Assembly (NCBI GenBank): GCA_963922205.1
Contig: CAWUHX010000237.1
Span: forward strand, 62,001-126,000
Source: Romanomermis culicivorax
Taxonomy: Eukaryota > Nematoda > Enoplea > Mermithida > Mermithidae
DNA: 64,000 nt
Direction of reading: 5' to 3'
Part shown: in pieces, positions 18,564 to 38,699 of the stretch
Numbering within the stretch: the stretch's first letter is position 1
How the letters are laid out: the number at the start of each line of letters is the position of its first letter
Notes under the pieces: generated by a model
What the model was told of the DNA's origin: nothing
What the model saw: only the letters and a program-made list of their open reading frames with translations
Databases searched by the model: none
Position numbers and translations under genes: made by a program

Positions 18564-20315
18564 ATGAAGTCGAAAGCTGATCTCCCTTCACAGATCGAGA
18601 ACAAGGTCCAAGCAGCATTTGAGAATGCTCTTGGACCCCTCAACCAAAAGTTAGAGGCCATGAATGGTCGGAGGCACCCTCTCCTGTCCAGCTTTATGGC
18701 CCCTCCCACCTTCTCCGGTGCTTTTGGTGAGTCTATCACTGATTTTATGTCGCATCTTACTCATTTCTTTACACTCCAGGGTGTAAGCGAAACAGATCAT
18801 GCGTATAAAATCGCCTTTCTGGAGTCATGCCTCACGGGTCCTGCTCTTGCCTCCTACCGGGACTTTAGCAGCAGCACTCCAATACCTACCCGCTAGGAAG
18901 AGTTTACGGCTTTTCTACGGAGAGATTTTCCGGTAGGGCGCGACTCTGATCTACATCAGCAGCTAATCCAAGATCAACTGCAGAAGCCGACAGAGTCCGC
19001 GATAGTCTACCTTGAGCACCTCAAGAGACTATCCAGGGTAGCGTATCCAGATCTCGCGACGGATGTCAGAGATTCTATCATCAAACCTATCTTTCTGCGA
19101 GGATTGAAACCAGTCCTCCCAGATGGTATCAAGTTTAGGGAGTTTACGACTCTTGAAGAGACACTCAAGGCAGCCGTTTACGCAGAATCCCAAATCTTTC
19201 GGGACGAGATTCGGTACACCGCATCATCTAACGCTGTTTTCTCTTCAGAACCTAAACACGCCGGATATAATCCCGATATGCCTAACAGAAGCGCAAACGG
19301 TCGTCAGAGCAACGCTCCAACGTCATCATCCTCCACCGATGAGGTTTGCCGCTTGAAACAGGAAATGGCCAGGCTCACGGCGCACGTAGCGAAGCTCACG
19401 GCCCAGCAACGTGCACCAGCGCCAATCCAACAGACGCCGCCTCCACAGCCGTCGACACCAAATCAGTCCGCCGGGCCACGCTTGGGAGCACACCTTCAAA
19501 CGTGCTCCTTCCACGGACTGTGTACACATAGCGACGCCGACTGCCGGGCCCAGCATCCCACCGGTGCCGCTCCCGGTAACAACGCCGCTAACGGTGGTCG
19601 CTGTTACTTTTGCCGTACACGTGCCCACCCCACGGACCGATGTGATAGGCCATGCCCTCATTGTCATCAAGTGCGAGTGCACTGATCAACTGCCTGTCCG
19701 CAGCGCAATCCGGCAAACACGGGTGAGAATGACTACCAAAATACTGGTTATTCCTCCCAGGGGACAAATGTGTATCATCAGAGAACTGGTTATCACCCTC
19801 CTAAAGGGATGGGAAACCAATAACGGCAGCCCATACGTCGCAACAACGCCGTTGGGGCTACCGATGGCCCTCCTCATCCAGATCCTCTTGACCTGGATGA
19901 TGAGGCACTTGCTGAACACCTGACAGATTCTTCACAACAGTGTTATCCTGTCTGCGTAATCAGTATTGGATTTTCAGTGGTTCAAGCAGCCCAGGTACCC
20001 GTACAGATAAATGTATCGGACATACCGCTGCCACCACCACCACCAAGGTATGCAATGCCGGTCACTCTGGACCCCTCGACGACACCGCAGTTTGTTGGCC
20101 ACGCTAACATCCTCGCATCGTATTGCATCCCCAAAACCACGACTGCTGAGCCAGCTCCAGCCGCAAACAGGACGTCTTCGGCGCCACCGGCCCGCATTGT
20201 CCCTCCAGGACCACCGCCTTCGATCCCCAGGGATTCGGCTACGGAAGTCCTCGACCAGGTTGAGCCCATGAATTTGTCAGGTATACTACCTTCTTCTTCA
20301 GGTGATCCTAGAGTA
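18564..20315 (+). pseudogene. gag: GypsyA Gag with zinc-finger region, interrupted by stops
   Basis: The structural polyprotein of the retroelement. In one frame: an N-terminal helix (QIENKVQAAFENALGPLNQK), then a capsid-like section (FSGAFGESITDFMSHLTHFF, FLESCLTGPALASYRDF), a TAG at 18894-18896, then continued homology (FLRRDFP, AIVYLEHLKRLSRVAYPDLA, SIIKPIFLRGL), aligning by eye with GypsyB Gag (KPLFVEDM, FDLEHLATLAYPNF). A coiled coil (CRLKQEMARLTAHVAKLTAQ) leads to Cys/His clusters at about 19500-19670 (CSFHGLCTHSDADC, CYFCRTRAHPTDRC, CPHCHQ). More stops follow in frame: TGA 19683-19685 and TAA 19821-19823. The frame remains coherent to about 20315, where it shifts. Confidence 0.85.
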
Positions 20316-20356
20316 GGAACCAGAAATCTATCTCAGTCCACCACTCTATCGATTTC

Positions 20357-21151
20357 TTGTTCACAGCGCCATCGCCCGTCCAAGACGCGATGTTGGCCAT
20401 CTGGTCAGTTGACCTGGCCAAGAAATACCCGCATTTGCCGTGGACTCTGCTCAACGAGCCATCGCATGTCGAAGCGCTCACGGCCGCCGACGTGGTGCTC
20501 GGGGCACCTGTATCAATGCGACTCTTACGACCCGACGTCGCCCGACGGGCACTCGAGTTCATTGCCAATGGGACTATCACAATCTCGCCCGTCGAGAAGT
20601 TCTTATTAGATGGGGAGCCATCCTCGCCTTCGGTCGATGCCGTCCGCCGAGCAGTCGAACAAGCCAGTCGGATCCTCCTGCCTGCTGTCGCCGCTACCTC
20701 ACCGACAGCAGCGCCACATGTTGCCCCGACATTGCCAACAAAAATGGACATTACTGTTTCCTCGCCCCCGGCCAAGGAACCCGCAAATGATCCTACACCG
20801 CCGGCAACAGCCCAAACCACAACGTCGGCACCAGCCCAAAGTCCACTGTCGGCACCAGCCCAAAATACATCGTCGGCAACAGCCCAAGCCAAATCGCCGG
20901 CGCCAGCCCAAGAGACATCTCCGACCGCTGCGACCAAGTCGCCCGTCATCGAACACATGGCCGTCAACGAGACCTTACGTCCGGTTAACGAAGATGTCAG
21001 CATCGTTGAGGAATCTCCGTTCCCAACAGCAGTCGCCCCACGGTCGCCAAAAGTCGGTATCCTCCGGGAAATCCACCCGTGTGGTGGACTGGTCCTCGAT
21101 TTCCCCGGCCAGGAACCCATCTCGTCTGACAGCGACGAAGAAGAAATCTGA
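20357..21151 (+). CDS. GypsyA ORF before the glycoprotein: Pro/Ala/Thr-rich, acidic tail
   Basis: A 264-codon open frame, one frame away from Gag but probably its continuation after a frameshift near 20315, because open sequence precedes the first ATG. Residues 1-110 look globular (AMLAIWSVDLAKKYPHLPW, RLLRPDVARRALEFI, SVDAVRRAVEQASRILL). Residues about 125-200 form a low-complexity linker with imperfect SAPAQ repeats. The C-terminus is acidic (SSDSDEEEI). It ends TGA at 21149-21151, 28 bases before the glycoprotein ATG at 21180. No known domain was recognised; a Gag C-terminal region is the likeliest reading. Confidence 0.6.
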   Translation: MFTAPSPVQDAMLAIWSVDLAKKYPHLPWTLLNEPSHVEALTAADVVLGAPVSMRLLRPDVARRALEFIANGTITISPVEKFLLDGEPSSPSVDAVRRAVEQASRILLPAVAATSPTAAPHVAPTLPTKMDITVSSPPAKEPANDPTPPATAQTTTSAPAQSPLSAPAQNTSSATAQAKSPAPAQETSPTAATKSPVIEHMAVNETLRPVNEDVSIVEESPFPTAVAPRSPKVGILREIHPCGGLVLDFPGQEPISSDSDEEEI

Positions 21152-21179
21152 CACTGCCCCTCAGGCCAGATTTGTGAAA

Positions 21180-37180: not shown

Positions 37181-37184
37181 TATG

Positions 37185-37345
37185 ATGATCACCGATGGTG
37201 CGCAGCACCTGGCGAGATCAAGGACCTTGACCGATGGTGTGCAGCACCTGGTGCGTTCAAGTAATTCAGCACCGATCACTGTTGGCGCGGAGCACCCGGT
37301 ACGATCAGAGTCTTATGCCGAGATATCGGTTGGTGTGCAGCACCC
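37185..37345 (+). repeat. Four-copy peptide-coding repeat between RNase H and integrase
   Basis: DNA units of about 45-50 bp containing GG(T/C)G(T/C)GCAGCACCTGG and GGCGCGGAGCACCCGG encode DGAQHLARS, DGVQHLVRS, VGAEHPVRS and VGVQHPDLF. They lie in the tether between RNase H and the integrase zinc domain of GypsyA. A short in-frame expansion of a linker. Confidence 0.65.
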
Positions 37346-38699
37346 CGACCTTTTTGCTGCTCAGCTGGAGGATCCGGAGTTAGCCGACATCATTCGCTCT
37401 CTTAAGCCTCTGGGCGACCAGAATGATGTGCGAGGCTACCATCTATTGGATAACGTTCTTCAGAAATGGACAGGCGAGTCCAATAAGATTGTCATACCCA
37501 GATCCATGGTTACTACCATTATCCGGGCTCATCATGATGACATCTTAGCTGGACACTTTGGTGCTAAACGTACTGCGCGGCTCATTGCTCGCAGATACCA
37601 CTGGCCTTCCCTCAGTCGGGATGTCAAGTCCTTCTGTCAGCGGTGTGATCTTTGCCAATAGAATAAGCCCGCTCGACAGAAAACCACTGCGACCCTGAAA
37701 CCTATCACCATCACGGGACCGTTTCATCGGGTAGGTGTCGACTGTATGGGACCAATGACCACTAGCGAAGCTGGCAACCGTTTCATCGTAGTCTTCATCG
37801 ACTACTTTACAAAATGGGTCGAGGCTTTTGCTACTCCGGACATCACTGCGTCCACCATAGCCCGGCTGTTTGTAACGCAAATTGTCTGCCGGCACGGGGC
37901 ACCGCAGATTCTTCAGTCAGATCGTGGCACTGATTTCACATCAAAACTGATGACTGAGATCACTGCGATCTGCGCAACGAAGAAGATCCACTCTACCGCC
38001 TATCATCCGATGACCAACGGCGAGGTGGAAAGAGCTAATCAGATGCTAGCCACACGGCTACGTATGTATGTTCATCAAGGACATACCGATTGGGATGAAC
38101 ACCTACCATAGGCTGTGTTTGCCGTCAATATCAGCATGAATGAGTCAACAGGGTACTCGCCCTTTGAACTCATGTACGGTCGCACACCCATGCTCCCTGT
38201 TGATGCCGCGCTCTCATTCAACCCTCCGGCCCATATCATTAATGTTTCCTCATATGATATGGAGGTCAAACGTCATTTCACGAATGCATTAACCTTAATC
38301 CAGAGTCGGATGGAGAAAGCACAGGAGGCCTATGCACGGTCTTACGACCGGAAGGCACATGATGTCTCGTACAAAGTAGGGGATCAGGTGGTCAAACTGC
38401 GCACCTCCAGCAAACATGGACTCACTCCTAAATTGCTGCCCATCTACGATGGGCCCTATCTTGTAACAAGTGTGGCATATCCCAATTTCACACTTCGTCT
38501 GGAGACGGATCAGGAAGACACTGTACATGTCAACCAGCTTCGACTTTACGTGTCCCCTGACCCACCGAGTGAAGCAGAGGATACACCTCCCACTTCACGG
38601 GCAACGGATTCGGCACCCTTGTTGTTTCCTTCAACAAGTCGGGACTTTACACCGAATTTGATTGACCCACATCTTGATGCAGAGGTCCCTGACCACTAA
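37346..38699 (+). pseudogene. pol: GypsyA Pol: integrase (zinc domain, core, GPY-type C-terminus)
   Basis: Zinc-binding domain HHDDILAGHFGAKRTARLIA with FCQRCDLC. TAG at 37659-37661 follows, where relatives have a Gln or similar (CQ-stop-NKP). The catalytic core has VDCMGPMTT, FIDYFTKWVEAFA, QSDRGTDFTSKL and THE-like HPMTNGEVERANQML, giving D, D and E. TAG at 38109-38111. C-terminal part: FELMYGRTPMLP, then YKVGDQVVKLRT, GLTPKLLPIYDGPYLVTSV and VHVNQLRLYVS, matching the tail of the GypsyB fusion ORF. Ends with TAA 38697-38699. Confidence 0.93.

Follow-up and report, generated by a model that had tools for sequence, protein, structure and literature searches.

The 64-kb window analyzed here (the whole stretch, positions 62,001 to 126,000 of contig CAWUHX010000237.1) contains a Ty3/Gypsy retroelement, GypsyA, in which a viral envelope glycoprotein (Env) lies between Gag and Pol and shares their reading frame. 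The order is Gag, a signal-like stretch, an Env of the Monjiviricetes/gB type, a membrane span, retropepsin, reverse transcriptase (RT), RNase H, and integrase, all in one frame. This order is found in GypsyA, in a second family (GypsyB), and in six polyproteins from other assemblies, and in the families GypsyC and GypsyD as far as these were read. We regard it as confirmed, at the level of sequence, that GypsyA is a Ty3/Gypsy element with a Monjiviricetes-type, gB-like Env inside the Gag-Env-Pol frame. From this we infer the mechanism, that is, the expression route and the fusion activity of Env.

One frame from Gag to integrase

GypsyA spans positions 13481–40672 and is bounded by long terminal repeats (LTRs) of about 1.4 kb, which are 98.2% identical and have TG...CA ends (Table 1). 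Its glycoprotein is split by a minus-strand BEL element. The BEL insert and its duplication add up to 10951 nucleotides (nt), which is 1 mod 3. This accounts for the shift in GypsyA from frame 0 before BEL to frame 1 after it, and the glycoprotein resumes in the Pol frame, as an earlier note on this DNA had proposed. The downstream open reading frame (ORF; 32404–34647, 747 amino acids (aa)) runs from the ectodomain through the membrane span into a retropepsin-like stretch. It holds 18 Cys residues, 8 N-glycosylation sequons, and one membrane span. A canonical retropepsin stretch (34648–35700) and RT (from 35701) follow in the same frame. The earlier note had counted only two stops from the glycoprotein into RT (34645 and 35698). 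The count is correct, and both stops are missing in all 29 other copies that were compared (L010–L038, the best 29 other matches to the 747-aa piece). Further stops occur in gag and pol of the window copy, and the frame changes within pol near 36.5 kb.

The genome (359 Mb, 595 contigs) was searched with the 747-aa piece, and the best 60 of 4187 candidates were scored. A single open frame of 3084–3116 aa is present in 46 of these 60 GypsyA matches; the window copy belongs to the 14 without it. These are the uninterrupted gag-glycoprotein-pol frames that the earlier note had proposed to look for. Together with the window ORFs, they bear out its claim that Env sits between Gag and Pol in the frame of Pol. 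Gag is also in the Env-Pol frame, and the 46 uninterrupted frames support the suggestion of an ancestral Gag-Env-Pol polyprotein.

Pieces of four copies contain Gag, a signal peptide, the glycoprotein, the membrane span, the protease or proteases, RT, RNase H, and integrase. They repeat the layout LTR, leader, Gag, Env, Pol, LTR (two copies read upstream, two others downstream). In the upstream pieces, an open frame of no fewer than 1015 aa reaches the BEL site; in the downstream pieces, it stays open for 2096 aa beyond this site, through to where Pol ends. In one upstream and one downstream piece, Pfam reports the Ty3 capsid, Monjiviricetes_fusion, protease, RT, RNase H, and integrase in this order. 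The capsid family PF19259 is matched (E 3.4e-7) in L039, the piece that matches GypsyA Gag.

The order protease, RT, RNase H, integrase in GypsyA Pol is that of Metaviridae (Ty3/Gypsy). The target-site duplications of GypsyA (ATAG) and GypsyB (CTAT) fit the 4–6 bp of Metaviridae, and the Ty3-type capsid and zinc knuckle of this family are present in GypsyA, with counterparts in GypsyB (PF03732 and PF00098) and, for the zinc knuckle, in GypsyD. BEL/Pao polymerase domains (Peptidase_A17, DUF1758/1759) were found by Pfam in the nested BEL and not in GypsyA.

Identity of the glycoprotein and selection on it

The GypsyA Env matches PF24664, the viral fusion glycoprotein of Monjiviricetes, with an E value of 5.5e-13 (48.2 bits against a curated cut-off of 27). 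PF24664 is also matched in GypsyB, GypsyC, GypsyD, P0001, and P0002 (Pfam), and precomputed matches exist for P0003–P0009. The Borna disease virus G family (BDV_G) is matched as well, but weakly. P0002 has a weak match to the herpesvirus gB family (E 1.3e-4, below cut-off). A profile built from eight Env sequences hits gB in the PDB (E 1.2e-7); the aligned part covers the central helix and the Cys after it. Since the profile matches herpesvirus gB, the GypsyA glycoprotein is, at the sequence level, a Monjiviricetes-type fusion protein of class III. Monjiviricetes includes chuviruses, bornaviruses, and rhabdoviruses. No chuvirus protein was among the relatives returned by protein searches, and the Monjiviricetes label is meant at the level of the class. 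No match to the baculovirus F protein was obtained in GypsyA with Pfam up to E 0.1.

In the alignment of eight Env sequences, 50 columns are invariant and 16 of these are Cys. Among the distinct changes in the ectodomain of the 29 GypsyA copies, 97 of 121 are synonymous (38.6 expected; ratio 0.12). The ratio is 0.15 for the membrane span and the first protease-like domain (PR1) in the 29 copies, and 0.17 from the second protease (PR2) to the start of RT in 27 of them. The first two ratios are biased towards conservation because the copies were found by the protein of this region (32404–34644); the PR2–RT region and the ORF-X overlap described below lie outside the query. These substitutions show purifying selection on the GypsyA Env.

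GypsyA has two protease-like domains. PR1 matches PF13975 weakly (E 0.0027, below the curated cut-off). The PR1 piece has no match in GypsyB, GypsyC, GypsyD, or P0001–P0008, and is thus confined to GypsyA in this comparison. An Arg-Ser-rich stretch (about 34470–34640) lies between PR1 and the canonical protease.

The same order in other families and assemblies

The window holds a divergent neighbor of GypsyA, an internally deleted GypsyB copy, which independently has Gag followed by a like glycoprotein. The integrase C-terminus, recognized by eye, comes after the N-terminal part of this glycoprotein. In L043 and L045 the order of the window GypsyB is found undeleted, and open frames of at least 2300 aa are present in 49 of 150 scored GypsyB matches. 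One copy shows Gag, Env (PF24664, E 1.7e-18), the membrane span, protease, RT, RNase H, and the start of integrase. Its family's Gag matches PF03732 (E 7.3e-5, just under the cut-off) and PF00098. GypsyB copies also occur in tandem at a spacing of about 8.4 kb (C26:1369756-1386879 and C122:529043-537793), and one of the C122 copies lies within an open frame of 3612 aa.

GypsyC (L048), read without its gag part, has Env, protease, and RT in one frame. GypsyD (L051), read without RT, has Gag with four zinc knuckles (PF00098 x4), Env, and protease. Three other Gypsy-type loci (L046, L047, and L049) gave no Env match in the roughly 770–800 aa read before the protease.

The search of other assemblies returned seven proteins that match a GypsyA piece among 7096 candidates. 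P0003–P0008 (2293–2797 aa, four kinds of source) are each a single protein with the order capsid-like Gag, zinc knuckle, Env, RT, RNase H, integrase. In all six, the region from Env to RT carries a match to protease or the motif D[TS]G. P0001 consists of Gag and Env only. A further Env relative comes from Romanomermis culicivorax (a mermithid nematode) and is 80% identical over 284 residues to the best match in the genome of the window, which makes a mermithid or a close relative the probable host. No relative was confirmed in IMG/VR.

An overlapping gene between Gag and Env

A second frame, ORF-X, is open between Gag and Env for 255–279 aa in 26 of the 29 GypsyA copies. Two copies are longer, owing to a frame change upstream, and one is broken; the frame is open in 28 of 29 overall. 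The Gag-Env-Pol frame is itself open across the overlap in 26 of 29. When the main-frame protein was held fixed, the second frame stayed open for at least 255 codons in 5 of 2000 synonymous shuffles. With the second-frame protein fixed, the main frame did so in 32 of 2000. Substitutions in the overlap concentrate on the wobble position of the second frame: of 152 changes, 90 hit codon position 2 of the main frame. In ORF-X, 92 of 152 changes are synonymous against 46.7 expected, a number reached in none of 500 simulations. The main frame acquired 1 stop against 7.3 expected (1 of 500 simulations had as few), and against 6.3 expected given the constraint from ORF-X (11 of 2000). The first overlap tests and the search for ORF-X relatives left out L013, L019, L030, and L036, which have breaks; the overlap test was repeated with all 29 copies. 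The synonymous excess and the scarcity of main-frame stops thus argue that ORF-X is under selection as a protein and that the main frame is also kept open there, with its amino acids nearly free. Codon bias of the main frame is usual in Gag before ORF-X and has the same direction after it, at a weak level.

No Pfam family matches ORF-X at an E value under 0.28. We considered it as a displaced Gag domain and rejected this, as no significant match was found in GypsyB or P0001–P0008 (best E 6.2). The window GypsyB copy has no long second frame at this place. No standard slippery heptamer for a frameshift into ORF-X was seen by eye in 20280–20400. Of the two splice-acceptor-like sites before ORF-X, the first was found by a consensus scan in three GypsyA copies and the second by eye, with an exact match in 24 of 29 copies. 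With ORF-X, GypsyA offers a clear example of an LTR element that codes in two frames at once.

How Env may be made

We consider it probable that GypsyA is an old, multiply amplified Ty3/Gypsy lineage encoding one Gag-Env-Pol polyprotein with an internal signal peptide. The earlier note had placed the start of the glycoprotein at ATG 21180, and this is not supported. Of the 29 copies, 4 have Met at this position, 21 have Leu, and 3 have Phe or Val; in the remaining copy the codon could not be placed. There is therefore no conserved start, a separate Env start at 21180 was rejected, and the rarity of this AUG favors translation within a Gag-Env-Pol polyprotein. An open frame connects Gag with Env in GypsyA, GypsyB, GypsyD, P0001, and P0003–P0008. 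By hydropathy alone, and not with a signal-peptide predictor, a signal-like stretch was called before Env in GypsyA, GypsyB, GypsyC, P0001–P0006, and P0008. A membrane span after Env was found by hydropathy in GypsyA, GypsyB, GypsyC, P0001, and P0003–P0008.

In the proposed mechanism, the full-length RNA would be translated from the gag AUG and Gag would remain cytosolic. The internal signal peptide would direct the ectodomain into the lumen of the endoplasmic reticulum, and signal peptidase would cut after it. Because the membrane span would then halt transfer, protease, RT, RNase H, and integrase would be made as a cytoplasmic tail of Env. The protease on the cytosolic face would free Gag and Pol and leave a membrane fusogen in the budding membrane. 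In GypsyA, ORF-X would add an accessory protein.

Several points weigh against this mechanism. At the threshold applied, P0007 lacks a signal-like stretch. In GypsyB and P0001, the hydrophobic stretch that precedes Env contains a Met, and a separate start is therefore possible there. No NPGP (2A) motif occurs in the pieces of GypsyA, GypsyB, and GypsyC or in P0001–P0009, and 2A-type self-cleavage was rejected on this ground. A single polyprotein gives Gag, Env, and Pol at 1:1:1 unless degradation or termination is unequal, which is unusual for retroviruses. The predicted structure of the window Env is too poor to confirm the fold (predicted local distance difference test, pLDDT, 47.6); this low-confidence model has a long helix (204–248) followed by strands, a weak fit to a gB-like fold. 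Finally, Env and RT distances are uncorrelated among nine elements (see below).

Env could instead come from a spliced or spliced-leader (SL) trans-spliced subgenomic RNA, as in errantiviruses, with the frame kept so that unspliced RNA escapes decay. We consider this unlikely, though it is the strongest of the alternatives. In Cer1, gag-pol has no stop, CERV is made from a spliced RNA, and the missing stop avoids decay according to the authors (PMC10309623). The acceptor-like sites before ORF-X and the Met in the signal-like stretch of GypsyB and P0001 would suit such a route. A scan with a simple nematode-type consensus found no acceptor-like site just before Env in six sequences of four families (three GypsyA copies and one each of GypsyB, GypsyC, and GypsyD), and the scarcity of the AUG at 21180 also argues against it.

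Env might also lie within a removable in-frame intron, the full RNA giving Gag-Env-Pol and the spliced RNA Gag-Pol. This would solve both the topology and the stoichiometry, and all parts do share one frame. However, the consensus scan showed no donor-acceptor pair at the Env borders common to the families, and we regard the intron as improbable. Slightly less probable still is a glycoprotein that no longer mediates entry and only anchors Gag and Pol to internal membranes. In favor of such an anchor, the C-terminal side of Env is covalently joined to Pol, and an R-X-[KR]-R motif is missing in the Env of GypsyA, GypsyB, P0001, and P0002, though P0007 has one. The purifying selection on the GypsyA ectodomain and the invariant columns with their Cys residues speak against a mere anchor. 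A private capture or an assembly artefact in the window copy, which is decayed and carries a nested insertion, is refuted for practical purposes: the glycoprotein is neither a private insertion nor differently placed in intact copies, and the order is common to tens of copies, to other families, and to other assemblies.

History of the lineage

RT is 34–59% identical among nine elements. GypsyA, GypsyB, and P0003 are joined in both the RT and the Env tree (support 98/97 and 98/96). A fully supported branch separates the nine Env-bearing RTs from three Env-less RTs, which sample one Env-less group. The latter (L046, L047, and L049, Gypsy-type RTs of the same genome) served as the outgroup. They replaced L001–L008, which were dropped because we take them to be non-LTR elements from their YADD motif and longer RT match.

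Congruence of Env and RT distances was not supported (Mantel r 0.01, a value reached in 3814 of 10000 permutations). An exchange of Env between lineages is therefore possible, despite the clade of GypsyA, GypsyB, and P0003 in both trees. One capture followed by vertical descent is plausible on these trees.

Layout of the window

The features are listed in Table 1. The gap from the end of Pol to the 3' LTR of GypsyA is only 558 nt. A comparison of 10 ORFs of at least 70 aa across three copies gave no clear coding signal in the leader; the ORF at 17865–18104 has at most a weak third-position excess (5/4/11).

The LTRs of the nested BEL (21467–21920 and 31959–32412) are 99.3% identical, and the element has a 5-bp duplication. 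Its integrase end and a Phlebovirus G2-type Env share a frame of 1276 aa (23199–27029, minus strand). BEL is thereby a second type of element here with Env in the Pol frame, yet at the usual end, and its Env is unrelated to that of GypsyA. Downstream of it lies a 370-aa ORF without a Pfam match (22009–23121, minus strand). A minus-strand ORF at 41479–41865 presumably resembles part of the eukaryotic RNase H2 subunit A. A diverged repeat family occurs at 43195–44021 and 62189–63109, with copies 87–90% identical.

Table 1. Annotated features of the window (positions counted from its first nucleotide)
Feature	Position	Strand	Remarks
GypsyB, internally deleted copy	8716–13208	+	LTR, gag 10014–10970, glycoprotein N-terminal part ~11523–11867, LTR; target-site duplication CTAT
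GypsyA 5' LTR	13481–14896	+	98.2% identity to 39258–40672; target-site duplication ATAG at 13477–13480
GypsyA leader, ~3.7 kb	14897–18563	+	no clear coding signal; also in copies L039 and L041
GypsyA Gag (Ty3-type capsid, zinc knuckle), frame 0	18564–20389	+	codon-position bias; in-frame stops here
Two splice-acceptor-like sites just before ORF-X	20290–20366	+	consensus match only
ORF-X, overlapping, frame 2, 253 aa	20390–21151	+	ends 28 nt before 21180; Gag-Env-Pol frame runs through
GypsyA glycoprotein, first part	21180–21461	+	signal-peptide-like stretch (hydrophobic core 21213–21269) and N-terminal ectodomain
BEL/Pao with Phlebovirus G2-type Env	21467–32412	-	target-site duplication GTCTG at 21462–21466 and 32413–32417
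GypsyA glycoprotein, second part	32413–33870	+	ectodomain with Monjiviricetes_fusion match, then membrane span near 33766–33870
PR1, retropepsin-like, in Env cytoplasmic tail	33961–34353	+	DTGC at 34060, ILG motif
PR2, canonical retropepsin	35017–35286	+	PF13975, E 6.7e-9
GypsyA RT	35992–36474	+	PF00078, E 1.2e-35
GypsyA RNase H, integrase, C-terminal part of polyprotein	36849–38699	+	PF17917, PF17921, PF00665; several stops
GypsyA 3' LTR	39258–40672	+	target-site duplication ATAG at 40673–40676

Comparison with known systems

Errantiviruses carry Env after Pol, and this Env is of the baculovirus F type; GypsyA has neither property. Like GypsyA, errantiviruses and insect endogenous retroviruses (Gypsy, ZAM) combine a Ty3/Gypsy Pol with a viral Env, which they encode in a third, spliced ORF (PMC12992720); the GypsyA Env is gB-like and precedes Pol. 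In the retroviruses and env-carrying LTR elements of the cited papers, Env comes after Pol and usually from a spliced RNA. We found no description of an Env between Gag and Pol of a retroelement in the open literature, a scope outside which most subscription papers and bioRxiv lie. The excerpts of PMC7642597, PMC10084718, PMC10309623, PMC12440569, PMC5408684, and PMC12992720 do not describe one.

Anakin, a BEL/Pao element of mosquitoes, is likewise an LTR element with a Monjiviricetes glycoprotein, in its case from a chuvirus (PMC7642597). Its Pol is BEL/Pao, whereas GypsyA has a Ty3/Gypsy Pol, with Env between Gag and protease in one frame. In the BEL/Pao elements Roo, Tas, and Cer-7, the envelope-like protein lies downstream of the polyprotein, and the figure legend suggests the same for the Anakin glycoprotein (PMC7642597).

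Cer1 of C. elegans resembles GypsyA as a nematode Ty3/Gypsy element with Gag-Pol uninterrupted by a stop and with an extra element-specific protein (CERV, compared with ORF-X). Unlike GypsyA, it has no recognizable Env (PMC10309623). Endogenous viral elements (EVEs) with Jingchuvirales glycoproteins, which belong to the same viral class, are flanked by Gypsy fragments in Hymenoptera and other insects, with no clear capture by Gypsy (PMC10084718). In contrast, complete GypsyA-type elements hold the glycoprotein in frame between Gag and Pol. Remnants of the GypsyA clade may be the source of those Gypsy fragments.

The sequences leave roughly even chances that these elements are enveloped reverse-transcribing viruses of one ancient and widespread clade, whose structural proteins and enzymes come as a single Gag-Env-Pol polyprotein with an internal signal peptide and a class III fusogen resembling gB. 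If so, the clade would have arrived at its own arrangement, unlike those of retroviruses and errantiviruses, and one branch would carry an accessory gene that arose by overprinting. The conserved frame implies another route to an enveloped retroelement, in which the enzymes are at first anchored to the fusion protein on its inner face. A gB-like fusogen of the negative-strand RNA virus type joins the Env repertoire of Gypsy elements. There are many open copies in this nematode-like genome, and the expression route and membrane topology are therefore directly testable. The structural polyproteins of alphaviruses and flaviviruses also begin with a capsid, followed by an internal signal and an envelope protein. 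These are RNA viruses without a reverse transcriptase, and their likeness to GypsyA is one of logic, not of descent.

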